DNA from: a virus
DNA length: 35,934 nt
Direction: 5' to 3' (one strand)
Virus record (IMG/VR): IMGVR_UViG_3300025699_000025
Coordinates: 1 to 35,934 of that record
Shown here: positions 19,254-35,934 of the stretch, one piece after another
Layout of the letters: the number at the start of each line of letters is the position of its first letter
How positions within the stretch are numbered: the first letter of the stretch is position 1
Notes under the pieces: generated by a model
Seen by the model: the letters and a program-made list of their open reading frames with translations, nothing else
What the model was told of the DNA's origin: nothing
The model's database searches: none
Made by a program: the position numbers and the translations under genes

Positions 19254-20267
19254 TTAATCTCCTTTATTTAATCTTGCAGACAACACTGTCCAAGCTTTAG
19301 CTGCTGTTGCAGGAACAACACCATTTCCAAGCATACGAATGCGGTCAACTCTGTTTTTCTTTACATCAGTTGTACGAGGCGTGTTACCCTCCCAATCCCC
19401 TGACCAATTATTTTGCCATTCATTGCTATCGCCATCCAGTGCAGTCCAACCAGGCGGTAAACCCATTAGTTTTTCGACCCAATCTGGATTCAGTGCTTTG
19501 CTGTCGGTTGTAGCTCGTACTGCGTCAGCTAAATTATTAGTCATTGGATTACGATTTTTTGCTTTACAAGTTTCAACGTTTTGCCCACCTTTATAATCTC
19601 TGGTGGCTGGTGTAGGCCAATTAACTTTGACTGCATCTGCTAACTTAGCGCCATACCAAGCGCTGTCTGGGTCTTTGCTGTGTTTTGATTTGTATTGACC
19701 ATTAACTATTTCAGTTGGATAGCCACCGCCTGTCGCGTCAAATACTGTAGCTGTCGGCCATGATAAAGACTCTTTTTCTTTGGTGCTGTGCGCCAACTTC
19801 ACGCGCGCTGAATATTCCCCACGTTGCATTGTAACCATCTTCTTCCAAGTCGCTAATGACTGTGGAGAGTCCAAGCGATATGTGACCTTCGACGTTTTCG
19901 AACATAACTCTATTAGGTCTAATTGCTTCCATGTGTTTTCTGATGACAGGCCACAAGTGTCTGGAATCGTCTTTTCCTTGTCTTTTACCTGCCTGTGAAA
20001 ACGGCTGACATGGATATCCTCCAGTGATGATGTCAACTTTGTTTCTAAAGATTTGTGCTGGGAAGGTTTTAAGATTCGTGTAAATAGGTGCAGCAGGAAT
20101 GAGTCCTCTTTCCATCTTCTGCACCAAGTTTGTAATGGCGAAGGCTTCGATCTCCACATAAGCGATTGTTCTATGTTCAAACCCTGCAAGATCAAGTCCT
20201 CTTTCGATTCCACCATATCCGCTGCAAAAGCTGACGACAGTTGGTAATTTTTCGGTAGCACCCACAT
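19254..20267 (-). CDS. Target-recognition and motif X half of cytosine methyltransferase, overprinting the catalytic half
   Basis: A 337-residue frame opening at ATG 20267, inside the stop of the preceding gene (TAATG). Residues 100-337 read as the target-recognition region and end of a C5 methyltransferase: TWKKMVTMQRGEYSARVKLA, two WPT modules (SWPTATVFDATGGG at 169-182; NWPTPATRDYKGGQ at 216-229), PDWVEKLMGLPPGW (261-274), and motif X in MLGNGVVPATAAKAW (312-326). It lacks the PCQ and ENV catalytic motifs; these lie in the overlapping frame (19738-20265). Residues 1-100 are unrecognised and may be only a by-product of overlap. It either pairs with that protein as a second subunit or supplies its C-terminus by frameshift. 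Confidence 0.75.
   Translation of the reverse strand: MWVLPKNYQLSSAFAADMVESKEDLILQGLNIEQSLMWRSKPSPLQTWCRRWKEDSFLLHLFTRILKPSQHKSLETKLTSSLEDIHVSRFHRQVKDKEKTIPDTCGLSSENTWKQLDLIELCSKTSKVTYRLDSPQSLATWKKMVTMQRGEYSARVKLAHSTKEKESLSWPTATVFDATGGGYPTEIVNGQYKSKHSKDPDSAWYGAKLADAVKVNWPTPATRDYKGGQNVETCKAKNRNPMTNNLADAVRATTDSKALNPDWVEKLMGLPPGWTALDGDSNEWQNNWSGDWEGNTPRTTDVKKNRVDRIRMLGNGVVPATAAKAWTVLSARLNKGD
19736..19743 (-). promoter_or_regulatory. Candidate +1 frameshift site (AUU UGA C)
   Basis: The catalytic frame ends ATT TGA C. Slipping one base forward at the stop reads GAC GCG ACA and enters the second methyltransferase frame exactly. The layout parallels CUU UGA C of bacterial prfB. No Shine-Dalgarno-like stimulator is seen just upstream, and Ile-tRNA re-pairing on UUU would be weak. 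Hence candidate only. Confidence 0.4.
19738..20265 (-). CDS. Catalytic half of C5-cytosine DNA methyltransferase (motifs I-VIII)
   Basis: A 175-residue protein starting at GTG 20265, two bases downstream of the ATG of the other frame, behind the same AGGGGAG. Motif I is FCSGYGGIERG (13-23). Motif IV is GGYPCQPFSQAG with the attacking cysteine C86. Motif VI is FENVEG (E123). Motif VIII is QHQRKRVFIMA (160-170). It transfers methyl from AdoMet to cytosine, probably guarding phage DNA from restriction. It stops at TGA right after motif VIII, so target recognition and motif X are missing; both occur in the +1 frame. The stop context ATT-TGA-C would allow a +1 shift giving a 336-residue product of normal length. 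Confidence 0.88.
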   Translation of the reverse strand: MGATEKLPTVVSFCSGYGGIERGLDLAGFEHRTIAYVEIEAFAITNLVQKMERGLIPAAPIYTNLKTFPAQIFRNKVDIITGGYPCQPFSQAGKRQGKDDSRHLWPVIRKHMEAIRPNRVMFENVEGHISLGLSTVISDLEEDGYNATWGIFSAREVGAQHQRKRVFIMADSYSI

Positions 20268-20476
20268 TAAAACTCCCCTCTACAAATCTTGTTTAGTTTG
20301 TGTAGTTGGTTAGGTGTTAATCTGCCTTTATGTAGCTTAATAATACATGACCACCGAGATTCCGGGATACCAAAGATGCGCCATTTTCTGACACTATCTT
20401 GTTTTATTTCTGTATTCTCTGAAATAGCTTTTGAGCCACCGCAATTTTTTATGATTGATTCAATTGTATGTTTCAT
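20267..20476 (-). CDS. Small Cro/YdaS-like helix-turn-helix regulator
   Basis: A 69-residue DNA-binding protein, first gene of the leftward replication block. The helix-turn-helix reads IIKNCGGSKAISENTEIKQDSVRKWRIFGIPESRWSCIIKL, the layout of small phage Cro-type repressors. A ribosome binding site AAAGGAG lies 7 bases before ATG 20476. The promoter before it has a 15-bp palindrome between its -35 and -10, the expected place for an autoregulatory operator. Its stop TAA forms TAATGTG with the two methyltransferase starts. That it binds the palindrome is inferred. Confidence 0.78.
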   Translation of the reverse strand: MKHTIESIIKNCGGSKAISENTEIKQDSVRKWRIFGIPESRWSCIIKLHKGRLTPNQLHKLNKICRGEF

Positions 20477-20499: not shown

Positions 20500-20528
20500 A
20501 TCATAAGGAAATGTTTTCCTAATTGCAA
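20500..20528 (-). promoter_or_regulatory. Leftward early promoter (PL-like), -35 shared with the rightward promoter
   Basis: On the minus strand TTGCAA (20528-20523), a 17-base spacer and TATGAT (20505-20500) lie just upstream of the HTH gene. The spacer contains the palindrome AGGAAA-ACA-TTTCCT. TTGCAA is self-complementary and also serves the opposite promoter. Confidence 0.7.
20506..20520. promoter_or_regulatory. Palindromic operator candidate
   Basis: AGGAAA TGT TTTCCT is a perfect 6-bp inverted repeat with a 3-base centre. It fills the spacer of the leftward promoter and ends two bases from the shared -35. One bound dimer could block both promoters. The likely ligand is the adjacent Cro-like protein or the GcrA-like protein. 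Confidence 0.65.
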
Positions 20529-20550
20529 GGATTAAGTTTTTGCTTATAAT
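20523..20550 (+). promoter_or_regulatory. Rightward early promoter (PR-like)
   Basis: TTGCAA (20523-20528), a 16-base spacer and a perfect TATAAT (20545-20550). Transcription would start near 20557, before the AAAGGATT binding site of the leader ORF and the GcrA-like gene. Confidence 0.75.
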
Positions 20551-20575
20551 GAATGTAATAACAAAGGATTGAGAA

Positions 20576-20602
20576 ATGAATTACGTTGGTAAAAATGCCT
20601 AA
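20576..20602 (+). CDS. Possible 8-residue leader peptide ORF
   Basis: ATG 20576 carries the strong AAAGGATTGAGAA binding site but encodes only MNYVGKNA before TAA 20600-20602. The ATG of the regulator gene (20595) lies inside it, in another frame, with a poor binding site of its own. Translation coupling is one reading. The other is a one-base difference in the A5 run (20591-20595), since one A fewer would fuse MNYVGK directly to the regulator. Confidence 0.45.
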   Translation: MNYVGKNA

Positions 20603-21176
20603 AAGATTTTGGACACAAGATAAGATATTACAAATAATAACATTATGGAAAGATGAAACACTTTCTGTAGATCAGATTGCAGCAGAGCTAGGCACTACTA
20701 AGTCCTCTGTTGATAAGTTTGCTCATCGCAACCGGGATACATTGCCAAAGCGCGGTCATCAAAAAAAACCAAAACCTGTCAAATTTAAATTAGTTCCTAA
20801 AGTATCTAATCAATATAAAAAATATACAGATATTAAAATAATACATAAATGCCGTAGACTTTTTGAGGCAGGATACAGCACCCCGGATATTTGTGAGTTG
20901 GCTGAAGTAAGTCAATCGACATTTTACAAAATGCGTAAATATGCACCTAAATATTTTATAAAAGTAAAAACGCCACAGCCAGAAAATATTATACCTGTGA
21001 AGTTTGCGCCTCCCGGAAAAGGTTATTATTTAAAATCTAATGGTGGATATTTACATTTAAGCGGCAAGACCTTAACATTAAATAGCAAATATGCTTGGCG
21101 CGGTACAGAGTATCAATGCACTCTTTTAATGAAAACATCACCATTTAAAAAGCTTATCGCTGTTAGAGAATATTAA
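20595..21176 (+). CDS. GcrA-like double-HTH transcriptional regulator
   Basis: A 193-residue protein; the TTG at 20586 is an alternative start. Residues 5-45 (RFWTQDKILQIITLWKDETLSVDQIAAELGTTKSSVDKFAHR) match the N-terminal DNA-binding domain of GcrA, the alphaproteobacterial cell-cycle regulator that binds methylated promoters with sigma70. A second HTH lies at about 83-112 (RRLFEAGYSTPDICELAEVSQSTFYKMRKY). The C-terminal 60 residues look like a small beta domain and are unassigned. It is the first gene of the rightward early operon, and its stop overlaps the NusG-like gene (TAATG). It probably redirects host RNA polymerase; the family link is by motif only. Confidence 0.68.
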   Translation: MPKRFWTQDKILQIITLWKDETLSVDQIAAELGTTKSSVDKFAHRNRDTLPKRGHQKKPKPVKFKLVPKVSNQYKKYTDIKIIHKCRRLFEAGYSTPDICELAEVSQSTFYKMRKYAPKYFIKVKTPQPENIIPVKFAPPGKGYYLKSNGGYLHLSGKTLTLNSKYAWRGTEYQCTLLMKTSPFKKLIAVREY

Positions 21177-21706
21177 TGTGGTACTTATTAAAAGTTAAAA
21201 CTGGCACAGAATTTAAAATTCATGATTTATTAACTGATAATAATATTGAAGTTTACAGCCCTTATGAGAAAAAAGCTGTTAGGCGTAGTAAGCAACAGAA
21301 AAAATCTAGGGTTCGAGTTAATTATATTTTGCCTGTTTTACTAGGTTATCTACTTATTAATGTAGATGATTTTACAGAAATTTATGATCTAATAAGCAAA
21401 TATAGAAATATTTATGGTCTGCTATACGATGGCACGTCACCATATCGACTGCATGACAGCGTTATTAGTGAGCTAAAAGAAATATATCCTGTTGGTTATA
21501 AAACAGGTAAATTAAAAAATAGTATTGAGCAAATCAAACCGAGATATAAAAAAAATGATATATTAAAAATTGATAGTGGGCCTTTTACTGGGTTACAGAT
21601 ATCTGTATTGTCAGTCACTGACAGCAATCTAATAGGTAATCTGCAAATATTAGGGGCGGCAAGAGCAGTCACAGTAGCTTTAGACGAAATTAGGCTAAAC
21701 AAATGA
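21176..21706 (+). CDS. Phage NusG/RfaH-like transcription elongation (antitermination) factor
   Basis: A 176-residue protein. It begins MWYLLKVKTGTEFKIHDLL, followed by NIEVYSPYEKKAVRRSKQQ and LPVLLGYLLINVD, the NGN domain that binds the polymerase clamp. A KOW-type segment follows (KKNDILKIDSGPFTGLQISVLSV, about 122-144). Length and order fit NusG/RfaH. A phage copy would make host RNA polymerase ignore terminators on phage operons. It is cotranscribed with the GcrA-like regulator upstream and a small HTH protein downstream (overlaps TAATG and ATGA). Whether it acts on the leftward or late operon is unknown. Confidence 0.82.
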   Translation: MWYLLKVKTGTEFKIHDLLTDNNIEVYSPYEKKAVRRSKQQKKSRVRVNYILPVLLGYLLINVDDFTEIYDLISKYRNIYGLLYDGTSPYRLHDSVISELKEIYPVGYKTGKLKNSIEQIKPRYKKNDILKIDSGPFTGLQISVLSVTDSNLIGNLQILGAARAVTVALDEIRLNK

Positions 21707-21861
21707 AACAATATTATGATTATCTTGATAGGCTCAGTAGATCAGTAACGCTAGATTACACTAAAAGCCCTGATTACTTAGCTGATAGGTTTGATATAAG
21801 CCGTAGTGATGCCTATAGTTATTACATTAAATGGTTTAATAGCAGAAAAGCAGGCAAATAA
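21703..21861 (+). CDS. 52-residue HTH-like protein
   Basis: ATG 21703 overlaps the NusG-like stop (ATGA). The stop TAA 21859-21861 abuts the terminator. The protein reads MKQYYDYLDRLS, then SPDYLADRFDISRSDAYSYYIKW, which looks like a helix-turn-helix (ADRFDISRSDAYSYY), and ends in a short basic tail. It is probably a third small regulator of the operon. No family recognised. Confidence 0.65.
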   Translation: MKQYYDYLDRLSRSVTLDYTKSPDYLADRFDISRSDAYSYYIKWFNSRKAGK

Positions 21862-21887
21862 AAAAGCCCCGAAGGGCTTTCTTTTTC
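21860..21887 (+). terminator. Bidirectional Rho-independent terminator
   Basis: AAAGCCC-CGAA-GGGCTTT forms a 7-bp stem (21863-21869 with 21874-21880) followed by CTTTTT. On the other strand the loop is TTCG and the stem is followed by a T run, so it can also end the convergent leftward unit starting at 22697. Confidence 0.92.
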
Positions 21888-22104
21888 ATATTGAATATGG
21901 TGTATGATAAACACTCGACATAGTATTGTGCTCCTCCCAGTCAGAGCGTTCTTCGGGTGGTTCATAAAAGCTATTATATAGCTCATAAAATTGGTCTAAT
22001 GTCGCAATTTCAATCAATGCTTCTAAAATATTTTGTGCATCATCGTTTAATTCAAGTATATCCAGTAAAATATCGTTTTTTTCTTTTTTTTCTACTTCTG
22101 TCAT
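21886..22104 (-). CDS. Small acidic hypothetical protein
   Basis: A 72-residue acidic protein. The open frame continues to 22242, but ATG 22104 has the AAAGGATAATAA binding site typical of this region, and the upstream portion is covered by a better ORF in another frame. It reads MTEVEKKEKNDILLDILELN, then helical LEALIEIATLDQFYELYNSFY, and ends EERSDWEEHNTMSSVYHTPYSI. No family recognised. It is the last gene of a three-gene leftward unit ending at the shared terminator. Confidence 0.6.
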   Translation of the reverse strand: MTEVEKKEKNDILLDILELNDDAQNILEALIEIATLDQFYELYNSFYEPPEERSDWEEHNTMSSVYHTPYSI

Positions 22105-22108
22105 TTTA

Positions 22109-22279
22109 TTATCCTTTATTTTCATTAAATTCTGTTTCAATTTCTTCCGCGCAGATTCCGCATCTCCACCCTTCAATATCATCACCATAGTAGGGATAAC
22201 GATTGACATACCTGCCTGTCCCGGGAGAGCAATTGTTGTCACAATCTACACATACTTCTTTACCAAATATATTATTCAT
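22109..22279 (-). CDS. 56-residue zinc-finger-like protein
   Basis: ATG 22279 is preceded by AAAAGGATAATAA, the region's usual binding site; the stop is TAA 22111-22109. The sequence begins MNNIFGKEVCVDCDNNC, then a Tyr/Gly-rich middle, GWRCGICAEEIETEF and a short tail. CVDC and CGIC would form a zinc knuckle, similar to the GICG unit of the protein at 12880. Function unknown. Confidence 0.65.
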   Translation of the reverse strand: MNNIFGKEVCVDCDNNCSPGTGRYVNRYPYYGDDIEGWRCGICAEEIETEFNENKG

Positions 22280-22292
22280 TTTATTATCCTTT

Positions 22293-22697
22293 TTATTTGC
22301 TTAAAAAAGCCCATGTTGAACGATAGCAATATTTGTTGTCAAATATATCAGCCATCAACGCATTAGATTTGCGCCAGAGTTGATATAGTATTTCAAATTT
22401 TTCAGCGTGTTTTTTATGTACTTTAGAAATACCAATACTAAGCATTGCTAGCGTTTCATCCCATATTTTTTGAACTTCAATATAGGCTTCGACCTTAAAC
22501 ATTTGCTCACGCTTAATTGTCAATACAGTTGATTGATTTGACATCCCAGACGCTGATAAATCACCATCAACAGCAAATAAATCATATGTTTTGTTTGCAT
22601 ATGGTTTTTTATATACGCATGAATAATTTTCAAGCACCTCTGTAATCTCATCTATTGCAGTGTTTAATGTTGTTTTTATTTCTACATTATTTAACAT
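22293..22697 (-). CDS. Hypothetical protein, start of leftward accessory unit
   Basis: A 134-residue protein with GAAAGGATTATAA before ATG 22697. It is mostly helical (VEAYIEVQKIWDETLAMLSIGISKVHKKHAEKFEILYQLWRKSNALM), with a short beta stretch (KTYDLFAVDGDLSASGMSNQS). There are no membrane segments. I recognise no family. A promoter candidate lies 30-60 bases upstream, so it probably heads its unit. Confidence 0.65.
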   Translation of the reverse strand: MLNNVEIKTTLNTAIDEITEVLENYSCVYKKPYANKTYDLFAVDGDLSASGMSNQSTVLTIKREQMFKVEAYIEVQKIWDETLAMLSIGISKVHKKHAEKFEILYQLWRKSNALMADIFDNKYCYRSTWAFLSK

Positions 22698-25450: not shown

Positions 25451-25479
25451 TTGAATTTTTTTTGCCCTGTGGTAATTAT
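25451..25479 (+). promoter_or_regulatory. Weak candidate late promoter
   Basis: TTGAAT (25451-25456), a 17-base spacer and AATTAT (25474-25479), about 100 bases before the first late gene. The match is modest. The late genes may instead depend on a regulator such as the GcrA-like protein. Confidence 0.3.
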
Positions 25480-25583
25480 ACAACAGATGATGCCGCGCGT
25501 TCAACCAATATTGAAGCCTCGCACCTCGCCTTTTGTTAAGGCCTATGGGGGAATTGCGTCATTTTTTTTTGGAAAAATTTTTT

Positions 25584-25694
25584 ATGAAACCTTGTAAATC
25601 ATGTACCAGTCCTAAGACCTGTCAGAAGATGGGTAAGTGTAAAAAGCGTTCTAGTAAGCGTAAATCAAGCGGTTATAAGATACCTGGGTATTAG
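25584..25694 (+). CDS. 36-residue Cys-rich basic protein, first late gene
   Basis: ATG 25584 to TAG 25692-25694. The sequence starts MKPCKSCTSPKTCQKMGKCK and continues with a Ser/Lys/Arg tail ending YKIPGY. The CxxC..C..C spacing suggests a zinc or disulfide knot. The ribosome binding site is weak (GGAAAAATTTTTT). Ten bases after its stop the next gene begins with TAGGAG upstream. Function unknown. Confidence 0.6.
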   Translation: MKPCKSCTSPKTCQKMGKCKKRSSKRKSSGYKIPGY

Positions 25695-25703: not shown

Positions 25704-26384
25704 ATGTTTGGTAGACCTGGATTAGATAGATTTAATAAACCTGGCGGTGGTCGTCGTAATAATATGGGTACAGCACCTTTGCAACGTGCAACTAAACAAC
25801 CTGGTTTTGCTGGCGGTATGATGCGTCAACAACAACCAATGCAAACACCAAAACAACCTATGATGCAAAATTCTGTGCCAGACTACATAAAATCAAGACC
25901 TGATGTTGCACAAATGCCACAGCCTACAATGCCAAACATAAACACAATAAATGATAGAGATATGTTTATGCCTAAGCAGCCAGAGCAAGGATACATAAAA
26001 TCAACACCAGGTATAGGTGATATGCAGCCAATGGGCAGCGAAAACATAGGCATGAGCAATCCTATATCCGACAGCAGATTATTTAATCGTGCTAATATGC
26101 GGCAAAATATGGATATGCAAAGAGATCTAATACCTAACGATTATCAGCCAACAAGAGAAACTATGCCACCACGCGCAATGACAAATGACATTGTACCACA
26201 AAGACCACAATTTAACAGACCGCAATTTATGGGTAACATTGGTGGCGCGAACAGGCTTAATCCGCAAATGCAAAATCCATTTAATAATTATAATCGCATG
26301 ATGCAACAACAAACATTAAACAATCAAATAAGAGGTATGGGTTCAATATCTGATGCAGAATTGAGGCAAAGAAATGGGTTTTAA
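25704..26384 (+). CDS. Disordered Met/Gln/Pro/Asn-rich protein upstream of terminase
   Basis: A 226-residue protein with TAGGAG 7 bases before the ATG. The whole chain is low in complexity, rich in Met, Gln, Pro, Asn and Arg (MMRQQQPMQTPKQPMMQN). It has a repeated short unit: PDYIKSRPDVAQMPQP (about 59) and GYIKSTPGIGDMQPMG (about 95). There are no hydrophobic core segments, so it is probably intrinsically disordered. A virion or packaging-accessory role is suggested only by location; no family recognised. It overlaps the small terminase gene by 11 bases. Confidence 0.65.
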   Translation: MFGRPGLDRFNKPGGGRRNNMGTAPLQRATKQPGFAGGMMRQQQPMQTPKQPMMQNSVPDYIKSRPDVAQMPQPTMPNINTINDRDMFMPKQPEQGYIKSTPGIGDMQPMGSENIGMSNPISDSRLFNRANMRQNMDMQRDLIPNDYQPTRETMPPRAMTNDIVPQRPQFNRPQFMGNIGGANRLNPQMQNPFNNYNRMMQQQTLNNQIRGMGSISDAELRQRNGF

Positions 26385-26661
26385 GCCGGGACATAAGAAA
26401 ACAGGTGGCCGACAAAAAGGTACACCCAATAAGCAAACTGCATTGTTAAAAGATGCAATATTGCAAGCTGCGATCAAAACAGGTGGCGGTAAAGATGGTC
26501 TTGTTAAGTATTTACGTGAACGTGCAGAAGAAAATCCTGCCGCATTTATGACGTTGCTAGGCAAGGTATTGCCAATGCAAGTGGCTAATGATGATAGCGG
26601 TGAGCCATTTAAAATAATAAATAAAATAGAATTGACAGCACCAAAAAGTGACAGCAATTAA
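26374..26661 (+). CDS. Terminase small subunit-like protein (DUF5681-type N-terminus)
   Basis: A 95-residue protein beginning MGFKPGHKKTGGRQKGTPNK, the DUF5681-like motif that often starts phage small terminases. A helical segment follows (LLKDAILQAAIKTGGGKDGLVKYLRERAEENPAAFMTLLGKVLP) and a tail ends the protein. It should recognise phage DNA and stimulate the large subunit. Location directly before terL, with a 14-base overlap, supports this. It is shorter than most small terminases. Confidence 0.75.
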   Translation: MGFKPGHKKTGGRQKGTPNKQTALLKDAILQAAIKTGGGKDGLVKYLRERAEENPAAFMTLLGKVLPMQVANDDSGEPFKIINKIELTAPKSDSN

Positions 26662-27964
26662 CATAGAATTACCACCTAAGCTTATACCTGTGTTTGAAGG
26701 TAAGGCTGATTTTAGAGGCGCATATGGCGGCAGAGGTAGTGCTAAGACACGTAGTTTTGCCATGATGACAGCTGTAAGAGGCGCAATGCTTGCAAGTAAC
26801 GGAGAAAGTGGACAAATACTTTGCGCTCGTGAGCAGTTAAACAGTTTAAATGATAGTAGTTTTGCTGAGGTAAAAGCAGCTATATTAGGTAATCAATGGT
26901 TGTCACAATGTTATGAGGTAGGCGAAAAGTTTATAAGAACTAACCCTAAGATGCCAGGGCGTGTTGATTATAGTTTTAGCGGACTAAGGCATAACCTTGA
27001 AAGTATTAAGTCAAAAGCGCGTATTATGCTCTGCTGGATTGACGAAGCAGAACCTGTAAGCGAATTAGCTTGGAGTAAACTACTCCCTACAATTCGTGAA
27101 GAAGGCTCTGAAATATGGGTAACATGGAACCCAGAACGCAAAGGTAGTGCTACAGACCAACGCTTTAGGCAAGAACCGCCTGAAAGCAGTAAAATAGTAC
27201 AAATGAACTGGAAAGATAACCCTTGGTTTAATAAAACCCGATTAGCTAATCAGCGTGTAGAAGATCAGGAAAAACGACCAGACAGCTATGAATGGATATG
27301 GGAAGGCGACTATGCCAGTGTGCATGAAGGCGCATATTTCTCTAAACTACTAGCACAAGCTGAACGTGATAAACGCATAGTTGATAGTCTACCTATTGAC
27401 CCGGCATTGCCTGTATATGGCTTTCACGATATTGGCGGCTCTGGTGCTAAAGCTGATAGTTATACTATTTGGTTAGCGCAGTTTGTAGGTGATTGGATAC
27501 ACATACTTGACCATTACATAGCACAAGGTCAGGTACTTAGTTATCACATTAATGAGATGCGTAGACGATGGCCTCACGCTATTATGCAACTACCGCATGA
27601 TGGTGTTAATGAGAATAGCTGGACAGGCAAAAGAATAGAAGATCATTGGAGAGATGGTGGGTTTGAGGTGTTAAAACCATTAACAAACCAAGGTAAAGGC
27701 GCAGCAATGCAACGCGTTGAAGCTGTAAGACGCATACTGCCTAAATGTAAGTTTGTTAGAGAAAAAACACAGGCTGGCCGAGTATCACTTGGTTGGTATC
27801 ACGAAAAGCGCCCTGCTGATGGCCGTGAAATAGGACTTGGCCCTAATCACGATTGGTCATCACATGATGCTGATAGTTTTGGATTAATGGCAATAATGTC
27901 GGATAGATTTGTTAGACGTAAAGCAAAACCACTGATAATGCCTAACTACGGAAGTGCAATATAA
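26648..27964 (+). CDS. terL: Terminase large subunit
   Basis: A 438-residue packaging motor starting at GTG 26648. The ATPase domain has Walker A in YGGRGSAKT (27-34), Walker B in IMLCWIDEAEP with D132-E133, and the coupling segment WVTWNPERKG. The nuclease domain shows FHDIGGSGAKADSYTIW (about 258-274) and MQLPHDGVNENSWTGKR (about 315-331), with further acidic metal ligands near HDWSSHDADS. It pumps and cuts the genome, consistent with circularly permuted ends from headful packaging. Its stop overlaps the portal start (TAATG). Confidence 0.95.
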   Translation: MTAINIELPPKLIPVFEGKADFRGAYGGRGSAKTRSFAMMTAVRGAMLASNGESGQILCAREQLNSLNDSSFAEVKAAILGNQWLSQCYEVGEKFIRTNPKMPGRVDYSFSGLRHNLESIKSKARIMLCWIDEAEPVSELAWSKLLPTIREEGSEIWVTWNPERKGSATDQRFRQEPPESSKIVQMNWKDNPWFNKTRLANQRVEDQEKRPDSYEWIWEGDYASVHEGAYFSKLLAQAERDKRIVDSLPIDPALPVYGFHDIGGSGAKADSYTIWLAQFVGDWIHILDHYIAQGQVLSYHINEMRRRWPHAIMQLPHDGVNENSWTGKRIEDHWRDGGFEVLKPLTNQGKGAAMQRVEAVRRILPKCKFVREKTQAGRVSLGWYHEKRPADGREIGLGPNHDWSSHDADSFGLMAIMSDRFVRRKAKPLIMPNYGSAI

Positions 27965-30015
27965 TGCAAGAATATAACGCAGACATATTTGACGACGATG
28001 AAAACAACACTGCTGATGGCGTTGATGATGCTGGCAATGACGATGTACTATCTATGGTACGTGCTGAGTTTGAGCAATCTATTGGTATGTCACATGACAG
28101 TGACTTAACAAACAGTCGTGAAATAGCATTACGTTATTACAATGGCGATGTGTTTGATGTGTCTGTATTTGGACAGCGTAGTAAAACTGTAAGTACAGAT
28201 ATTGCTGACAATGTTGAATCTATACTGCCTGACCTTGTAGAAATACTGTCAGGCGAAGATGTTGCTGTATTTCAGCCTGTAGGAATAGAAGATGAGGAAG
28301 CTGCACAACAAGAAACAGATTATATAAATCATGTGTTTTTTGAGCAAAACAATGGCTTCCAGGTGCTATATGATGGCATTAAAGAGGCATTATTGCTAAA
28401 AACAGGTATATTTCGTTGGTACTGGGAAGAAGATAGCTACGACGACAAACAAACATATGAGCAGATTGATGGCTTTGGTTATATGTCAATGCTTGAAAAC
28501 GGCTATGAATTAACAGCTGGTGAAACAGAAGAACGTGAAGATGGCCAAATAACTATAACAGGCGCTGAATTTACAAAAACAACTACAAAAGGCCGTGTAA
28601 AAGTAGAAACTATACCTGCTGAACGATTTGCAGTAGCAAAAGATACTGTAAAATTACGCGATACAACATATTGCGTAGCACAAATACAAACACGTAAGCA
28701 AGATTTGTTAGAAAAAGGTTATGATCCTGACAAAGTAGCTAATTTAACTAATATTGACGCTGGTGACAATGAAACTGTTACTGATGCACGTAGTCTTGAC
28801 ACTGAAGATGACCAATTTAACAATTCTATAGGTGTTATGGAGCAAGTTACTGTTTTAGAACATTACATACGTGTTGAAGGCCAAATAAAGCGGCTTATAA
28901 CTAATGATGATGCGTCTGTAATATTGGAAATAGAAGATGCGGACTATATACAATACTCTAGTATATGTCCATACCCAATGCCACATAAATTCTATGGATT
29001 GTCATTAGCTGACAAATTAATTGAAGTACAGCGTGTAAAAACAGGCATACAACGACATATGCTAGATGAACTGTCATTTAGCCTTAATCAACGCATGGAA
29101 GTATCAGAAGATGGTGCAAACGAAAACACTATATCTGATTTGCTTAACAATACGCCCGGTGCTCCGATACGATCACGCAATGGCGGTGCTGTAAGACCAG
29201 TTAGACTGGCTGGCAGTGGTTTTGATTACATGACAGGTCTTGAAACGGCAAATGTCATGGCAGAGCGTCGCACAGGTATAATGCGCGGTGAAACAGGTAT
29301 AAAGGCTGACACATTGCACGAAACGGCCTCAGGGGCGCTTACAATGCTTTCTGAGGGTAAAAAACGTACAAGATTAATGGCACGTATTTTTGCTGAAGGC
29401 GGTATCAAAGATATGATGCTAGGAATACATTGTCTTATTAAAGATTATGCAACAGAAGCTGATTATGTACGTCTTAGAGGTAAATGGACACAAGTAGACC
29501 CTACAAAGTGGGGTAGACGACATGATATGACTATTGAGATTGGTGTTGGTGCTGGTGGCAAACAACAAGAAGCATTGTTGGCTAAAGAGGTTATAAATCT
29601 GCAAGCTGCTATTGTTAATCAGCAAGGCGGTGCGGCACAAGGTTCACTTGCAACGCCTGAGTCAATACACGCTGCATTAATACGATACGCTACAAAAGCT
29701 GGTATAAAAGCGCCTGAAATGTTTTTCCCTGCACCGCAACCTGGTATGGGTGAACAAGGACAAGAGCCGCAAGATAACAGCGAACAAATAAAAATGCAAA
29801 TGGAAGCGCAAACTAAACAGCAAGAGATGGAACTTAAAAAATACGAAATAGACAGCAAAATGCAATTAGAACGTGAAAAAATAGCTGCAAACGATGCCTT
29901 ACAGCGTGAGAAAATTGACCGCGAAACAGCACTTGCTGTGCAGATGCGTGAAATGGAAATGCAATATAAACAAGAAGTATCATCATTTAGACCAGGTGGT
30001 AGCCTTATAACATGA
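27964..30015 (+). CDS. Portal protein, P22-like
   Basis: A 683-residue portal of the P22-like family, close to the 725 residues of P22. The N-terminus is acidic and disordered (FDDDENNTADGVDDAGNDDV). The core begins REIALRYYNGDVFDVSVFGQ and KTVSTDIADNVESILPDLVEIL, with later LDELSFSLNQRMEVSEDGAN and ARIFAEGGIKDMMLGI. The C-terminal 90 residues are a Gln/Met/Glu-rich coiled coil (QMEAQTKQQEMELKKYEID), like the long barrel of P22. It forms the dodecameric DNA entry ring. It overlaps the next gene in ATGA. Confidence 0.92.
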   Translation: MQEYNADIFDDDENNTADGVDDAGNDDVLSMVRAEFEQSIGMSHDSDLTNSREIALRYYNGDVFDVSVFGQRSKTVSTDIADNVESILPDLVEILSGEDVAVFQPVGIEDEEAAQQETDYINHVFFEQNNGFQVLYDGIKEALLLKTGIFRWYWEEDSYDDKQTYEQIDGFGYMSMLENGYELTAGETEEREDGQITITGAEFTKTTTKGRVKVETIPAERFAVAKDTVKLRDTTYCVAQIQTRKQDLLEKGYDPDKVANLTNIDAGDNETVTDARSLDTEDDQFNNSIGVMEQVTVLEHYIRVEGQIKRLITNDDASVILEIEDADYIQYSSICPYPMPHKFYGLSLADKLIEVQRVKTGIQRHMLDELSFSLNQRMEVSEDGANENTISDLLNNTPGAPIRSRNGGAVRPVRLAGSGFDYMTGLETANVMAERRTGIMRGETGIKADTLHETASGALTMLSEGKKRTRLMARIFAEGGIKDMMLGIHCLIKDYATEADYVRLRGKWTQVDPTKWGRRHDMTIEIGVGAGGKQQEALLAKEVINLQAAIVNQQGGAAQGSLATPESIHAALIRYATKAGIKAPEMFFPAPQPGMGEQGQEPQDNSEQIKMQMEAQTKQQEMELKKYEIDSKMQLEREKIAANDALQREKIDRETALAVQMREMEMQYKQEVSSFRPGGSLIT

Positions 30016-30254
30016 CAACAATAAATGGCGCAGAAGCAAGCACGAACGCTACACAGGCTAAACGTGAATTAAAGCTGACAACTACAGCACTAAAAAACAT
30101 GGAAGAAATAGCATACGAAGCACTACTAAAAACAGGTGCAAAAGATGAAGATAAACGACGTGAACTTATAGCACTTATCAATGTGTGCCGTGAGATTCCA
30201 CGTAAACTAAACAACTACATTGACACTCATAAGATTAACCAAGAAGGAGTCTAA
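30012..30254 (+). CDS. Small helical protein between portal and scaffold
   Basis: An 80-residue charged helical protein (LTTTALKNMEEIAYEALLKTGAKDEDKRREL; INVCREIPRKLNNYIDTH). It is coupled to the portal stop by ATGA and is followed three bases later by the scaffold gene. Small helical proteins at this place occur in many podoviruses, but I recognise no named family. An assembly or accessory role is inferred from location. Confidence 0.65.
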   Translation: MTTINGAEASTNATQAKRELKLTTTALKNMEEIAYEALLKTGAKDEDKRRELIALINVCREIPRKLNNYIDTHKINQEGV

Positions 30255-30257
30255 AAA

Positions 30258-31229
30258 ATGAGTAATGAAGCCCCCTTAAGTATCGACCAAGCCGTAAGCG
30301 AGCTAACACAGTTAGAACCGCCAAAGCCTGAAGAAGCAGAAACTACAAATGCTGTAGAAGAAGTAGAAACAGAAGATACTGAACTAGATGGTGAACCAGA
30401 AGCCATCGACGACGACGAGGAGCCTGACGATAGCGAGGTCAACCTTGAAGATGAAGAAGTTGAGGAAGTTGAAGCGGAAGAAGATGTACCGTCAATCGAC
30501 GCACCCCAATTCTGGACTGATGGCGCAAAAGATGTTTTTTCATCACTGCCTGCTGAAGCACAATCTGTTATTGCAGATGAAGTTAAGCGGTCACAAGCTG
30601 AAACAACTAGAGCGCAACAAGCTGCGGCTGAAGTAACTAAACAGTCAGTGCAACGTATGGAACAACTACATAATGTTATTGAGTCAGTGCAAACTGAAAC
30701 AGCAACATTAGATAGATTGTTTGATGAGCGTTGGAATAACATTGATTGGGTAGCTATGTCGCAAAGAGACCCATCAGAATACTTGCAAAACAAAGCGTTG
30801 TTTGAAGCCGAGTCGCAAGCCTTAGAGGTTCATAAAGAATCTGCGGTCAATGCACAAAAAGAATACGAACAACAGATATTGCAAGAAAACTTTGCAAATG
30901 TACCTAAACTATTTCCAGATTTATTGGATGCTGTTAAAGGCCCAGAAATACAACAAACATTGACTAAGACATTGTTGGATTTAGGAGCTACACCAGAAGA
31001 ACTTAGGTTTGCAAAGCCAGGAATGTTAGCTTTGGCTTATGATGGTATTAAATACCGCAATAGTCAGAAAAAACTTTCAAAAACTAGCGCAAAACCTGTG
31101 CCTAAGACAATCAAGTCAAAAGGCAAATCAGCGGGTAATGCAAATTCATTAAGAAAAGCTCGTGCTGCAAAACGTTTCAATAAGTCTAATTCATTAGATG
31201 ATGCTGTAGCGTTATTGTTATCGAGTTAG
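30258..31229 (+). CDS. Capsid scaffold-like protein
   Basis: A 323-residue protein with AAGGAG before ATG 30258. Residues 1-75 are extremely acidic (EDEEVEEVEAEEDVPSID). FWTDGAKDVFSSLPAEAQSVIADE and a helical Gln/Glu-rich middle follow. The last 70 residues are very basic (KKLSKTSAKPVPKTIKSKGK; LRKARAAKRFNKSN). An acidic head, helical rod and basic coat-binding tail is the usual scaffold design, and the gene lies directly before the coat gene. The protein should be absent from mature virions. Confidence 0.85.
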   Translation: MSNEAPLSIDQAVSELTQLEPPKPEEAETTNAVEEVETEDTELDGEPEAIDDDEEPDDSEVNLEDEEVEEVEAEEDVPSIDAPQFWTDGAKDVFSSLPAEAQSVIADEVKRSQAETTRAQQAAAEVTKQSVQRMEQLHNVIESVQTETATLDRLFDERWNNIDWVAMSQRDPSEYLQNKALFEAESQALEVHKESAVNAQKEYEQQILQENFANVPKLFPDLLDAVKGPEIQQTLTKTLLDLGATPEELRFAKPGMLALAYDGIKYRNSQKKLSKTSAKPVPKTIKSKGKSAGNANSLRKARAAKRFNKSNSLDDAVALLLSS

Positions 31230-31250
31230 CTATCAACAGGAGATATTAAG

Positions 31251-32210
31251 ATGGCTGCACCAACAAACACAATCGTACCAGCAGGTGTTGCTGGCAACAG
31301 AGAAGACCTCTCAAACCTCATCGAGCGCGTTGCTCCTGAGAAAACACCATTCTGCTCAAACATTAAAGGCGGTGGCGTAAAAGTTACGGCTACAAGACAT
31401 GAGTGGCAAACAGAAACACTAGCAACTCCAGATGCTGCTTCAGCACAAGTTGATGGTGATGATACTACATCATTCGAAGCTAACACAAGAACTCGTGTTG
31501 CTAACCGCGTACAAACTAAAAAGCGTGCGGTAGTTGTAGCTGGCATACAAGAAGCTGTTGACTCAGCTGGCGTAGCGTCAGAAATGGCTAGACAAAAACT
31601 TATCAAAGGTATTGAGCTAAAGCGTGACTTCGAAGCTCGTTTCATTGGTAACTTTGCTTCATCTGAAGAATCAGGTTCAACTGGGCGTAAAGCTGCTGGT
31701 GCATTAGCATGGGCAACTTCAAACGTGTCACGCGGTTCAGGCGGTGCTAATGGTGGATATAGCGGAACAGATTGTGCTGCTGCTACAAATGGTACACAGC
31801 GTACTTTCACTAAAGACATCATGGATGCCGTAATTCAATCTGGATTTAATAATGGCGCTACATTCTCACAAATCTATATGAGTGCTGCTCATAAAGCAAT
31901 ATTTGCTGGATTTGCTGGACTTGCAGCTAACCGCTATGAAATCAACGGAATGGATGAAGGCGTAGTTGTTGGCGGTGCAGACGTTTATCTGTCTAACCAC
32001 GGCAAACTAACTATAATACCAGTACAGTATGGCCTAACACGCGATGCTCTATTTGTAGACCCATCCATGTGTACTTTAGGTACATTACGTTCACCACGTT
32101 ATGAAGAACTATCCAAAACTGGTGACAACGAAAAAGGTCAAATCCTTGGTGATATGACACTTATCGTGAAGAACGAAAAAGGTCTAGGCGTAGCCGCAGA
32201 CTTAACCTAG
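31251..32210 (+). CDS. Major capsid protein, DUF5309/SU10-type
   Basis: A 319-residue HK97-fold coat protein with ACAGGAGATATTAAG before the ATG. It begins NTIVPAGVAGNREDLSNLIE, RVAPEKTPFCSNIKGGGVKVTATRHEWQTETLA, then the long helix segment (VQTKKRAVVVAGIQEAVDSAG; ARQKLIKGIELKRDFEARF), and ends with the P-domain pattern GGADVYLSNHGKLTIIPVQY and ILGDMTLIVKNEKG. This matches the DUF5309 family that includes the phage SU10 coat. Codon choice is noticeably biased toward optimal codons here, as expected for the most abundant protein. A stem-loop follows the gene. Confidence 0.92.
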   Translation: MAAPTNTIVPAGVAGNREDLSNLIERVAPEKTPFCSNIKGGGVKVTATRHEWQTETLATPDAASAQVDGDDTTSFEANTRTRVANRVQTKKRAVVVAGIQEAVDSAGVASEMARQKLIKGIELKRDFEARFIGNFASSEESGSTGRKAAGALAWATSNVSRGSGGANGGYSGTDCAAATNGTQRTFTKDIMDAVIQSGFNNGATFSQIYMSAAHKAIFAGFAGLAANRYEINGMDEGVVVGGADVYLSNHGKLTIIPVQYGLTRDALFVDPSMCTLGTLRSPRYEELSKTGDNEKGQILGDMTLIVKNEKGLGVAADLT

Positions 32211-32226
32211 TATTAGGTAACGAATG

Positions 32227-32248
32227 GGGGTTGGCATTTGCCAGCCCC
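32227..32248 (+). other. Stem-loop after the coat gene, no T run
   Basis: GGGGTTGGC-ATTT-GCCAGCCCC forms a 9-bp stem with one G-T pair. It is followed by TACAATTAGG, not by T residues. It may stabilise the coat mRNA or attenuate downstream expression. Confidence 0.75.
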
Positions 32249-32266
32249 TACAATTAGGAGATAAAT

Positions 32267-32485
32267 ATGCCAAAAGCAAAAGCACCAAAGATTAAAGCAA
32301 AAATACAAAAATATGACGGCATTGAATGCATTGTCACTAAAAAAGGCGGTATAGCGCAAATAAGAACTGGTAAATCAAATGCTGATGGTAGTGAAATATG
32401 TTACAAAAAAGGCGACATATTTAAAACAAATGCAGCGCAAGCTAAGTTATTAGAAGAAAACGATTTGGTAGTAGCAAGGGATTAA
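32267..32485 (+). CDS. Small capsid-region protein with CIVTKKG domain
   Basis: A 72-residue protein with TTAGGAG upstream. A Lys/Ala N-terminus is followed by GIECIVTKKGGIAQIRTGKS, then YKKGDIFKTNAAQAKLLEENDLVVARD, a compact beta-barrel-like unit ending in the VV-R-D strand. The same unit forms the C-terminal half of the leftward protein at 12880-13272. Its place after the coat gene suggests a head decoration or completion role; not recognised as a named family. Confidence 0.7.
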   Translation: MPKAKAPKIKAKIQKYDGIECIVTKKGGIAQIRTGKSNADGSEICYKKGDIFKTNAAQAKLLEENDLVVARD

Positions 32486-32486
32486 G

Positions 32487-32816
32487 ATGAGTAGTTTTAA
32501 ACCATTTTCATACGATTCAGCAACAGGCATGAAACACAGCCTAGCAGTTGATAGCGCAACAGATGAAATGTATGTAAAAACAGAACAAGATGTCACTAAA
32601 ATATTAGATCACAATAAAAGACAGCAATATGATGCTAAAGGCACACTAGGTAAAGCTGATTTAGTTAAAGTTGGCACAATACCATTAGGGCTAATACAGC
32701 ATTGGAAAGCAACAGAAGGCATTGATGTATTTAATCAAGACCATTGGCCTCGTGTTGTAGAAAAATTAAACAGTAATGAGTTTCAGGCATTGCGAGTAGC
32801 GCAGTTTAAGGTGTAG
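32487..32816 (+). CDS. Conserved hypothetical head-region protein
   Basis: A 109-residue protein beginning MSSFKPFSYDSATGMKHSL. It has a middle strand region (ATDEMYVKTEQDVTKILDHNKRQQ) and the tail IPLGLIQHWKATEGIDVFNQ, then PRVVEKLNSNEFQALRV. I recognise this combination (a DVTKILDHNK-like segment and a W...GID-F---HWP end) from proteins between coat and adaptor genes of podoviruses. Its function is not established. It follows the previous gene by one base. Confidence 0.75.
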   Translation: MSSFKPFSYDSATGMKHSLAVDSATDEMYVKTEQDVTKILDHNKRQQYDAKGTLGKADLVKVGTIPLGLIQHWKATEGIDVFNQDHWPRVVEKLNSNEFQALRVAQFKV

Positions 32817-32818
32817 TT

Positions 32819-33430
32819 ATGGCATTTGCAAATCTAGGCGAATTAAAAACAGTTATAAATGACACGTTAAATCGTGATGATTTGACTGCACAAATACCTA
32901 ATTTTATTAAAATGAATGAAGAAAGCGTTAATCGCAAAGTCAATGTATCTGAGATGGAAGAATACACTGAGTTTACTATAAACGTAGGGCAAACAACATT
33001 GCCTACAAACTTCTTAGAGATGCGTAATATACAGATGAAAAGTTCTGAATATCCATTGCAATATGTACCGCATAACTCATTAGATGGAATAGGTGCTGAC
33101 TCTGGTATACCTAGATTTTACTCTATACAAGGCACTAAACTATTATTTTATCCGTTTCCCCCAGATGCTACTATTGGCATTATGAGATATTTGGCTGAAG
33201 TAACGCCTTTGGTAAATGATGTAGATACAAATTGGTTACTAAGTAAATCACCGCAAATATATTTGTACGGCACATTATTACACGCTGCACCCTTTTTAAA
33301 TGATGACAGCAGATTACCTGTATGGAGTGCATTGTTTGAAGATGCTGTTAAAGCATTGAATGACCAAGACAAGCGCAGAATGTCAGGAACTAAACCACAA
33401 ATGATAAACGCAACAGCAGGATACTATTGA
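32819..33430 (+). CDS. Head-tail adaptor (connector) protein
   Basis: A 203-residue protein. It opens with the helical segment FANLGELKTVINDTLNRDDL, continues with IPNFIKMNEESVNRKVNV, LPTNFLEMRNIQM, a beta region ending GTKLLFYPFPPDA, and the terminal helices LYGTLLHAAPFLNDDSRLPV and WSALFEDAVKALNDQDKRR. This is the phage adaptor pattern (P22 gp4/T7 gp11-like position), sitting under the portal. The following gene starts two bases after its stop. Confidence 0.85.
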   Translation: MAFANLGELKTVINDTLNRDDLTAQIPNFIKMNEESVNRKVNVSEMEEYTEFTINVGQTTLPTNFLEMRNIQMKSSEYPLQYVPHNSLDGIGADSGIPRFYSIQGTKLLFYPFPPDATIGIMRYLAEVTPLVNDVDTNWLLSKSPQIYLYGTLLHAAPFLNDDSRLPVWSALFEDAVKALNDQDKRRMSGTKPQMINATAGYY

Positions 33431-33431
33431 T

Positions 33432-34007
33432 ATGCCTACAACAACTAACTATGGATGGACATACAACCTACCAAATACTGCACAAGATACATGGGGCGGT
33501 GATTTAAATAACACGCAGATAGCGATTGATGCGCAAGTAAAAACTAATGAAAACCTTGCTAACTCAAAAGCACCAATAGCCGACCCTACATTTACAGGCA
33601 CAGTTACAGGGCCGACATTTGATGGTAATTTAACAGGTGATGTTACAGGCGATGTATTTGCAAGTGATGGTACAAGCAAAATACTCGAATCTGGTACAGA
33701 TGGCACTGATGCTGTATTGACAGGCAATGCAACGTCAGCGGATAAATGGTCTACTGCAAGAACTGTTACACTAACAGGCGTTGTTACAGGCAGCGTAGCA
33801 TTTGACGGCACAGGTGATTTTACATTAGCTACAAGCGTTGGCACAATAGCAGATGATACACTAACAATAGCGCAAACAAGCGGTCTGCAAGCAGCATTAG
33901 ATGGCAAAGTAGCACACGCAAGCGGTAATGGCAGAACAATAACTGTAGGCAATACAGCGCCTACAAGTCCACTAACAGATGACATTTGGTTTGATACAAC
34001 GGCATAA
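33432..34007 (+). CDS. Tail fibre/spike-like protein, short
   Basis: A 191-residue protein with the fibre N-terminal pattern TTTNYGWTYNLPNTAQDTWG, DLNNTQIAIDAQV, then repeats PTFTGTVTGPTFDGNLTGD and TGDVTGDVFASDG. It ends NGRTITVGNTAPTSPLTDDI, typical of short phage fibres and of the first segment of long ones. It lies between the adaptor and the gp10-like tail gene, so it is probably a tail appendage anchored at the tail tip. Its stop overlaps the next start (TAATG). Confidence 0.8.
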   Translation: MPTTTNYGWTYNLPNTAQDTWGGDLNNTQIAIDAQVKTNENLANSKAPIADPTFTGTVTGPTFDGNLTGDVTGDVFASDGTSKILESGTDGTDAVLTGNATSADKWSTARTVTLTGVVTGSVAFDGTGDFTLATSVGTIADDTLTIAQTSGLQAALDGKVAHASGNGRTITVGNTAPTSPLTDDIWFDTTA

Positions 34008-34471
34008 TGGCAATAAAAACTTATAACGGCACTGCATTTGCAGACGCAACAGCTAAGTATTACAATGGTAGTGCGTGGGTAGAACCTAATAGTGGTGTTA
34101 AGCGTTGGAATGGTAGTGCATGGGAAGTTGTTTCTACTGCATTTGAGGCAACACTAACGCAAACAGCACTATTTGGCTCTACATCATACAACTCATCACT
34201 GGGTAGCTATACAGGCGTTACAAGTAGCCCCGGCACTGGTTACACAGCGGTAACAGTCACAGGTGGTAAAGCGCCATTTACATATCAATGGTTTTATGTA
34301 TCTGGCACTGTAAGTAGTATAAATCTATTCCCACAACTACCTACGCAGTACACTACAAGATTTAGTTTTAATTATGCGTTATCAGCAGGCAATGCTGTTT
34401 ATAGATGCCAAGTAACAGATGCCGATAACAACGTAATAAATACAGACACAGTTACAGTGAGTTTTAGTTAA
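34007..34471 (+). CDS. Tail-associated protein with Ig-like C-terminal domain
   Basis: A 154-residue protein. The first 45 residues contain two KxYNGSAWV-type units (YNGTAFADATAKYYNGSAW; VKRWNGSAWEVV), a pattern common at phage fibre ends. Residues of about 60-154 look like an Ig/PKD-like beta domain (YTAVTVTGGKAPFTYQWFYV; AVYRCQVTDADNNVINTDTV). Such domains assist surface binding. It is coupled to both neighbours by one-base TAATG overlaps. Confidence 0.78.
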   Translation: MAIKTYNGTAFADATAKYYNGSAWVEPNSGVKRWNGSAWEVVSTAFEATLTQTALFGSTSYNSSLGSYTGVTSSPGTGYTAVTVTGGKAPFTYQWFYVSGTVSSINLFPQLPTQYTTRFSFNYALSAGNAVYRCQVTDADNNVINTDTVTVSFS

Positions 34472-35934
34472 TGTTAGTACCATTAAACATTCCGCCCGGT
34501 GTTTACACTAACGGCACAGAGTATCAGTCTAAAGGCCGTAACTTTGATGCTAATCTTGTGCGTTGGCAATTTGGTGCATTAGGGCCAATGGGTGGCTGGA
34601 GACAGAGAACAACTACAACTGTAAGCGGCAAGGCAAGACGTGTTATATCTTGGCGTGATAACAACAACCAAGTATGGGCTGCGATAGGAACAAATAGCCA
34701 TTTATATGCTATGACAGCTGGCGGTGCTGTAACAGATATTACGCCTAGCGGATTAACTGCCGGGCGTGCAGATGCAGATACAGGCGCTGGATTTGGCACA
34801 GGTTTGTATGGACAAGGGCCGTATGGAGTTAGTAACCCTGCTGTGGTAAGCACTACAAACCCTGCAAGCATATGGTCACTAGATACATTTGGTCAGATAT
34901 TGTTAGGTGTATTGCCTGATGACGGCAAACTGTACGAATGGAATGTAAACGTTAATGTTGATGCTACGCAAGTAACAAATGCGCCTGTAGACAACAGAGC
35001 AGTATTAGTAACGCCAGAGCGTATTGTGATGTGCCTTGGCGCAGCAGGAGTGCCAAGAGATGTTGCTTGGTCAGATCAAGAAGATAGAAACCAATGGACA
35101 GCAGCAGCTAACAATCAAGCTGGTAACTTTAGTTTACAAACAGCTGGTACAATATTAAATGCGGTCAATGTTAAAGGTGGTAGTCTTATATTTACAGATA
35201 AAGACGTATGGCGCGTTGTATATTTAGGGCCGCCATTAGTGTACGGATTTCCACAAGATAATGCTGGTGGTGGTTTAGTATCTGCTGGTGCGGTGACAAC
35301 GGCTGATGGCGCAGCATATTGGATGTCACATGAAAATTTTTATGTACATACAGGTTACAGTCAACCTATAGCTTGCGACGTACATGATGCAGTGTTTAAA
35401 GACATTAACAGAGCGCAAATTAGTAAAGTTACTGCTTGGCATAACGCATCATTCGGTGAAGTTTGGTGGTTTTACCCTAGTGCTGATAGCACTGAAAATG
35501 ACAAATATGTGGTTTATGACTACAGAGAAAGGCATTGGAATAAAGGCAGTTTATCGCGATTATGTGCGACAGACAAAGCGCCATTACCATATCCAATAGC
35601 TGTAGATGCTACTGGCAAGATATATGACCATGAGTTTGGATATGACCACAATGGCGATGTTAGTTTTATTGAACATGGGCCTGTAGAATTAGGTACAGGT
35701 GAAAATAGCTCTAATCTTACGTTTTTATACCCTGATGAAAGCGCACAAGGCGACGTTAGCATAACCTTTAAAAGTAAAATGTACCCTAACGGCACAGAAC
35801 GTAGTTTTGGCCCATACACAGCAACTCGGCAACCTGTACCAATAAGAGTACATGGCAGACAAATGCTTGTTAAAGCAATAGGCGCAGAGTCAACTAATTG
35901 GAGGCTTGGTGTACCGCGTATTGAAGTTAAACCA
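34471..35934 (+). CDS. Tail stabilisation/hub-type protein (P22 gp10-like), 5' part
   Basis: The frame starts at ATG 34471 (TAATG overlap) and remains open to the window end, 488 codons; the last residues are at the left edge (to 346), giving 492 in total. It begins LVPLNIPPGVYTNGTEYQSK, with DANLVRWQFGALGPMGGW. Beta-propeller-like repeats follow (VISWRDNNNQVWAAIGTNSH; GSLIFTDKDVWRVVYLGPP; ASFGEVWWFYPSADS; NDKYVVYDYRERHWNKG). This WRV-YDY-W pattern is that of podovirus tail hub/stabilisation proteins such as P22 gp10, which seal the packaged head. Assignment is from pattern and gene order. Confidence 0.8.
   Translation, partial: MLVPLNIPPGVYTNGTEYQSKGRNFDANLVRWQFGALGPMGGWRQRTTTTVSGKARRVISWRDNNNQVWAAIGTNSHLYAMTAGGAVTDITPSGLTAGRADADTGAGFGTGLYGQGPYGVSNPAVVSTTNPASIWSLDTFGQILLGVLPDDGKLYEWNVNVNVDATQVTNAPVDNRAVLVTPERIVMCLGAAGVPRDVAWSDQEDRNQWTAAANNQAGNFSLQTAGTILNAVNVKGGSLIFTDKDVWRVVYLGPPLVYGFPQDNAGGGLVSAGAVTTADGAAYWMSHENFYVHTGYSQPIACDVHDAVFKDINRAQISKVTAWHNASFGEVWWFYPSADSTENDKYVVYDYRERHWNKGSLSRLCATDKAPLPYPIAVDATGKIYDHEFGYDHNGDVSFIEHGPVELGTGENSSNLTFLYPDESAQGDVSITFKSKMYPNGTERSFGPYTATRQPVPIRVHGRQMLVKAIGAESTNWRLGVPRIEVKP
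35604..35934. repeat. Right copy of imperfect terminal redundancy
   Basis: Corresponds to 1-331 with 13 silent differences, all after the first 126 bases. Examples are GGA/GGC, AGG/AGA, CAG/CAA, CTA/CTT and GTA/GTT in one run of codons (GRQMLV). The contig was probably closed across two co-existing strain variants. Confidence 0.95.

Follow-up and report, generated by a model that had tools for sequence, protein, structure and literature searches.

To our knowledge, all operons under the control of functionally characterized NusG paralogs are bacterial or plasmid-borne, and the phage antiterminators that have been studied (N, Q, p7, and put RNA) are not NusG paralogs. LoaP, a NusG paralog with an NGN-KOW architecture, acts on the difficidin and macrolactin operons of Bacillus velezensis. 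In the difficidin case, LoaP binds a leader hairpin and overcomes NusA-stimulated termination; this anatomy of a hairpin, an intrinsic terminator, and a long operon has been experimentally established, and LoaP is described as the sole known case of a bacterial NusG-like protein that binds a specific RNA element (PMC12691694). Phage lambda Q exerts late control at a promoter-proximal site (PMC7171158). GcrA homologs, detected as members of pfam07750, have been described for phage phiCbK (PMC3556154).

Here, we describe a marine phage locus that encodes a NusG paralog and a double helix-turn-helix (HTH) protein side by side; the head gene set of the phage is podovirus-like. The window, that is, the whole stretch of DNA analyzed, is the 35,934-bp IMG/VR virus record IMGVR_UViG_3300025699_000025 (positions 1 to 35,934). 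Replication and recombination genes lie on its minus strand at approximately 14.0 to 20.5 kb, and head genes (terminase, portal, scaffold, and coat, from PHROG matches) on the plus strand from 25.7 kb to the record end. Because further tail and DNA-ejection genes at 0.5 to 12.9 kb are on the same strand as the head genes, the late transcript would span approximately 23 kb, provided that the record is permuted. Between the replication and late sets sits a plus-strand operon of three genes at 20595 to 21861 (Table 1), which the original prediction had assigned to a GcrA-like protein, a NusG/RfaH-type factor, and a small HTH protein.

Table 1. Features of the operon, its flanks, and the late leader in the window; lineages I to III are defined in the text.
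Feature	Position	Strand	Basis or remark
C5-cytosine methyltransferase, two overlapping frames	19254..20267	-	PF00145, E 3e-31
YdaS/Cro-like small DNA-binding protein, first gene of the replication-side transcript	20267..20476	-	phrog_8008, E 1e-7
Divergent promoter-like site	20528-20500	-	shares the -35 palindrome TTGCAA with the operon promoter
Operon promoter-like site, TTGCAA-16-TATAAT	20523..20550	+	10/12 consensus matches
8-codon mini-ORF with Shine-Dalgarno sequence, overlapping the gene 1 start	20577..20603	+	direct reading
Gene 1, double-HTH protein, 193 aa, C-terminal beta-rich domain	20595..21176	+	Pfam, family alignment, model
Gene 2, NusG/RfaH-type paralog, NGN plus KOW, 176 aa	21176..21706	+	Pfam, PHROG, Foldseek, alignment
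Gene 3, 52-aa protein, no recognizable family	21703..21861	+	present in lineage I only
Terminator-like hairpin closing the operon	21863..21880	+	7 pairs, T-rich tail
Candidate late promoter, TTGAAT ... TAATTAT	25451..25479	+	same layout in lineage III
Conserved promoter-proximal element, hairpin-capable, candidate recruitment site	25491..25523	+	common to all lineages
Intrinsic-terminator-like hairpin plus T9 in the late leader	25520..25570	+	-12.7 kcal/mol, unremarkable versus shuffles
36-aa Cys-rich basic peptide, first late ORF	25584..25694	+	translations; conserved in lineage III
Late operon, candidate target (226-aa protein, small terminase, large terminase, portal, scaffold, coat, further virion genes)	25704..35934	+	PHROG matches
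Small terminase	26374-26661	+	assigned from position and relatives

Gene 2 is a real NusG-family paralog, and the NusG/RfaH identity originally proposed for it holds. Its NGN domain (residues 2 to 100) matches PF02357 at an E value of 7e-14 (52.5 bits versus a cut-off of 22.2), the protein matches phrog_6386, "transcription antiterminator," over residues 2 to 173 at 8e-20, and Foldseek matched NusG and RfaH structures at 1e-8 to 1e-7. The KOW domain is indicated by the full-length phrog_6386 match and by TIGR00922 (residues 2 to 171); beta strands at residues 141 to 168 appear in a predicted model of low confidence (pLDDT 58), for which reason we make no claim of fold switching. A role in elongation is likely. 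Among the NCBIfam subfamily models, UpxY gave the best match (51.0 bits, E value of 2e-13, cut-off 100) and LoaP the second-best (40.1 bits, cut-off 125), followed by the housekeeping nusG equivalog (35.1 bits, cut-off 135.7) and the RfaH equivalog (32.3 bits, cut-off 144.5). Gene 2 is thus of the NusG family over its length, under every named subfamily cut-off, and nearest to UpxY and LoaP. The UpxY antiterminators of Bacteroidetes, despite being the best NCBIfam match, govern capsule operons, and we know of no partner HTH gene for them. The Q families PF03589, PF06530, and PF06323 were not among the Pfam matches of genes 1 to 3.

In scans of viral contigs, gene 2 was found in 26 contigs and gene 1 in 25, largely the same ones. 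By identity of the NusG protein they form three lineages: I with 95 to 100% (approximately 97%), II with 44%, and III with 31 to 34% (approximately 33%). Gene 1 lies directly 5' of gene 2 in every contig spanning both, in all three lineages, so that the neighborhood survey suggested with the original prediction found these two genes together throughout, and the proposed module of three regulators and a methyltransferase shrinks to a two-gene unit. Outside this phage group, single-sequence tblastn against INPHARED did not find the pair at a useful E value, nor did a pattern scan of GTDB genomes, both being scans that remote homologs escape; INPHARED gave one weak C-terminal match, in Sulfitobacter phage M39 (E value of 0.03). 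In lineage III (e.g., L029), a single strand carries the YdaS-like gene, the methyltransferase, replication genes, the HTH gene, the NusG gene, small terminase, large terminase, and portal, and the NusG stop codon lies approximately 50 bp before a late promoter-like sequence on the same strand. The lineage I and II pairs lie apart from the late promoter, with several kilobases of accessory genes in between. In another contig, the portal ORF changes midway from distant sequence to sequence near-identical to this phage group (L047, 4731-5171), and is either a recombinant or an assembly chimera.

The NGN fold of known family members binds the same polymerase site, and its presence in gene 2, as recognized by Foldseek, would be in keeping with a role in host takeover, in which the phage protein would oust host NusG from RNA polymerase on a global scale. 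We consider such a role very unlikely, since the strict pairing with the HTH gene and the lineage III position before the late operon suggest a local target.

Gene 1 contains HTH_23 and HTH_7 domains, both above the Pfam cut-offs, and its predicted structure (mean pLDDT 73) shows a pair of HTH units together with beta strands; the ATG at 20595 agrees with the lineage II start in the family alignment. Foldseek with this model returned no match at an E value of 0.001 or better, only generic HTH folds. With a profile of the gene 1 family, the best solved relative was the GcrA DNA-binding domain, matched over approximately 37 residues (4-40 in the solved structures) at an E value of 0.0076. Measured against the GcrA models themselves, gene 1 reached 16.1 bits in Pfam (cut-off 26.9, E value of 0.015, residues 6 to 92) and 13.2 bits in NCBIfam (cut-off 280), and, unlike the phiCbK homologs, it is not detected as a pfam07750 member. 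The matches end within the N-terminal part, the sigma70-interaction domain at the GcrA C terminus was not recognized in gene 1, and the rest of the protein consists of the second HTH and the beta-rich domain. We therefore rejected the assignment of gene 1 to GcrA, with both cut-offs missed and the sigma-binding domain missing. Because the likeness is confined to an HTH of approximately 40 residues, a GcrA function is unsupported, and "GcrA-like" fits the first HTH of gene 1, not the whole protein.

The resemblance of this HTH to the GcrA DNA-binding domain is also what speaks for the module originally envisaged, in which a GcrA-like initiation factor, the phage methyltransferase, and the NusG paralog jointly redirect host initiation and elongation. 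This reading is most improbable: gene 1 is under all GcrA cut-offs, and the methyltransferase, which does exist, belongs to the C5-cytosine family, is encoded divergently from the operon on the opposite strand, and was not found in L006, L007, L012, L016, and L020, all of which keep the gene 1-gene 2 pair. GcrA binding, for its part, requires N6-adenosine methylation (PMC3667746). We found no partner N6-adenine methyltransferase for gene 1, and such an enzyme could come from the host. The methyltransferase partnership was accordingly rejected for its chemistry, its strand, and its absence from several relatives. In lineage III the enzyme has a different orientation relative to the pair, and we regard it as a variable neighbor outside the module. 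The methyltransferase itself is encoded in two long overlapping frames, with N-terminal motifs in 19738-20265 and the C-terminal part in 19254-20267; two frames are likewise present in lineage III (L029, 1787-2930), and the sequence past the frame change differs among relatives. This layout suggests a split or frameshifted enzyme whose target-recognition regions have been shuffled.

The three-gene overlapping operon itself is borne out. Its ORFs overlap by one and four bases, with the TAA of gene 1 overlapping the ATG of gene 2 and the TGA of gene 2 overlapping the ATG of gene 3. The "strong terminator" said to follow is present as a hairpin with a T-rich tail, but it is an ordinary terminator-like site; predicted folding of the 51-nt stretch does not surpass that of shuffled sequences (z of -0.59). 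Gene 3 had been read as a small HTH protein, a proposal that found no backing: it gave no significant match in Pfam, PHROG, or NCBIfam and was found in the closest lineage only. The operon promoter-like site is kept in close relatives, a few of which carry TTTGCAA. As the operon promoter and the divergent replication-side promoter have a palindromic -35 hexamer in common, they may be mutually exclusive and constitute an either/or switch. An AGGAAA/TTTCCT inverted repeat adjoins the shared hexamer (window 20500-20550). The YdaS/Cro-like protein encoded across this region scored 23.9 bits with YdaS_toxin, under the cut-off of 30. The mini-ORF is identical in 9 close relatives and, given that a 63-aa HTH gene occupies the same place in lineage II (L016, 1855-2046), may be a remnant preserving translational coupling. 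Beside the operon, a block of two small genes (window 21886-22697) is inverted in lineage II (L016, 3672-4281) relative to lineage I, and several repeat families in 20561-25199 are recurrent Shine-Dalgarno/start contexts.

The late genes of lineage III are preceded by TTGACA ... TAAATAT, in the promoter layout also seen in the window. In lineages I/II and III alike, the leader reads TAWWTAT, exactly 12 nt, and then GCCGCGCG, a stem-loop, and GCCTCGC; GCCGCGCG has a single mismatch-free occurrence in the window. The alignment of the lineage I/II and III leaders scored 28, a value reached by 1 of 2,000 dinucleotide shuffles. Both leaders share a predicted fold of the element, in which a lower stem leads through a 3x3 internal loop (CGC/CUC), two G-C pairs, and a bulged G to an inner stem with its loop. 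Despite their different sequences, the inner stems are paired in either group, and the lower stem carries one double change from U-A to G-C, which is the sole compensatory pair, between effectively two groups. Among the strict-pattern sequences, all variable columns fall in the apical loop (2/2 in lineages I/II, P of 0.019; 3/3 in lineage III, P of 0.0007); two lineage III sequences beyond the strict pattern have one C-to-T change beside the element. Searching 2.9 million viral contigs with the combined -10 and element pattern returned 21 contig stretches, all from this phage group, and the pattern precedes late genes wherever the contig flanks show. A loose pattern for the element alone matched unrelated contigs and was dropped, so the specificity of the pattern lies in its phasing with the -10 sequence. 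Rfam gave no match above the gathering score. The element hairpin has a folding energy no better than that of shuffles, so the element may work at the level of either DNA or RNA.

Downstream of the element, the terminator-like hairpin precedes the first late ORF in lineages I/II. Its stem is paired in 11 variants bar one cell, with changes only to G-U, a pattern of conservation rather than covariation, since shuffles do as well; no terminator was recognized in the lineage III leader. Lineages I and II are 97% identical in the leader, whereas their NusG proteins are only 44% identical, and co-variation of protein and element is thus not seen between them. The peptide of the first late ORF keeps a CKSCTSP motif between lineages, its L029 counterpart being 8251-8358. 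Upstream of the late promoter (25319-25362), there is a perfect 18-bp direct repeat, ATGTTCACCTTTTGTTCC, with its copies 26 bp apart. The phage's own late operon (leader 25451-25571) is likely the target of genes 1 and 2, rather than the host takeover programme initially suggested.

The element lies approximately 0.9 kb before the small terminase gene, and of approximately 49 ends of related contigs that were mapped, 8 lie within 25045-25596, by our estimate approximately five times the average density, for contigs that were chosen by two nearby genes and hence have no uniform background. The conserved block might accordingly serve in packaging or mark a genome end, as a cos/pac-like site, and have nothing to do with the HTH-NusG pair. 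This we hold to be unlikely, because the ends are spread over 550 bp rather than halting at the element, homopolymer runs and repeats in the region can break assemblies, and the exact spacing between the element and the -10-like sequence is kept. The end cluster itself could reflect a physical genome end or packaging site, or assembly breaks.

The two HTH domains of gene 1, the promoter-like sequence directly 5' of the element, and the ordinary stability of the hairpin would equally fit a plainer division of labor, in which the HTH protein activates the late promoter in the conventional manner, the NusG paralog is a general processivity or anti-Rho factor lacking sequence-specific recruitment, and the element is just the initially transcribed sequence or causes a sigma-dependent pause. 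We regard this as rather unlikely, given that a conserved block past the start with loop-restricted variation exceeds the needs of a promoter, and that NusG paralogs of known function act on few operons, several of them adjoining their target (PMC7819879).

It is about an even call that genes 1 and 2 are instead the late-gene switch of this phage, placed like lambda Q. Host polymerase would make both proteins early. The HTH protein would then bind to the late promoter, or to DNA close by, and help the promoter to fire or pause, and the NusG paralog would load on RNA polymerase during transcription of the element, at approximately +6 to +40 of the predicted transcript, with the element recognized either as an RNA hairpin, as by LoaP, or as non-template DNA, as by RfaH. 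The paralog would carry polymerase beyond the leader terminator in lineages I/II and then through the long late operon, so that the overall scheme would follow the logic of lambda Q, executed by a NusG paralog. Support for the switch comes from the NusG identity of gene 2 and its adjacency to the HTH gene across three lineages, from the lineage III pair ending just before the late promoter, and from an element that is common to the lineages, exclusive to the phage group, and variable in its loop; moreover, the window proteins scanned yielded neither a sigma factor nor an RNA polymerase nor a Q-like protein. The proposal is weakened by the lone compensatory pair, the shuffle-level folding energies, and the missing lineage III terminator, as well as by the contig ends clustering near the element, the lack of co-variation between lineages I and II, and the low-confidence NusG model. 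The narrower version, in which the paralog is a late antiterminator recruited by a hairpin in the nascent leader, with its double-HTH partner acting at the same promoter, is a tentative possibility.

This arrangement resembles the LoaP system in its NGN-KOW paralog, in a candidate target leader with a predicted small hairpin and a terminator-like hairpin before a long operon (both hairpins in lineages I/II; the small hairpin only in lineage III; energies unexceptional), and in the presence among the structural matches of gene 2 of 8f5g, the LoaP-RNA complex. It differs in the hairpin sequence, with no UNCG loop in the window and YWWG loops in lineage III, in having an HTH-protein partner and being phage-encoded, in its score under the LoaP cut-off, and in that RNA recognition is here predicted. 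Common to RfaH and ops are the NGN fold match and recruitment near the operon start, here a candidate; by contrast, the RfaH equivalog score falls far under its cut-off, no ops consensus is common to all lineages, and the C-terminal domain of gene 2 looks KOW-like by sequence. As with lambda Q and tR', the candidate regulator gene stands just ahead of the late genes in lineage III, and in lineages I/II a candidate promoter-proximal signal is followed by a terminator-like hairpin, but the protein family is another one and the predicted start comes before the conserved element. To GcrA, the link is the first HTH of gene 1, which differs in its second HTH, in having no recognizable sigma-binding domain, and in that no adenine methyltransferase partner was found.

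As judged from the sequences compared here, the phage NusG paralog is real and conserved, has a constant HTH partner, and has a specific, conserved candidate target. In the literature searched, no paper ties a phage NusG paralog to a late operon, and late-operon control would be an unusual use of the NusG family. If the switch operates as proposed, a universal elongation factor would have been converted by phages into a switch for late genes, and the recruitment of NusG paralogs could be followed with the short conserved leader as a ready reporter. Should the hairpin prove to be the recruiting signal, gene 2 would be the second RNA-recognizing bacterial-type NusG protein after LoaP and would represent a route of late-gene control other than Q, which would matter because LoaP has been described as the only one of its kind (PMC12691694).
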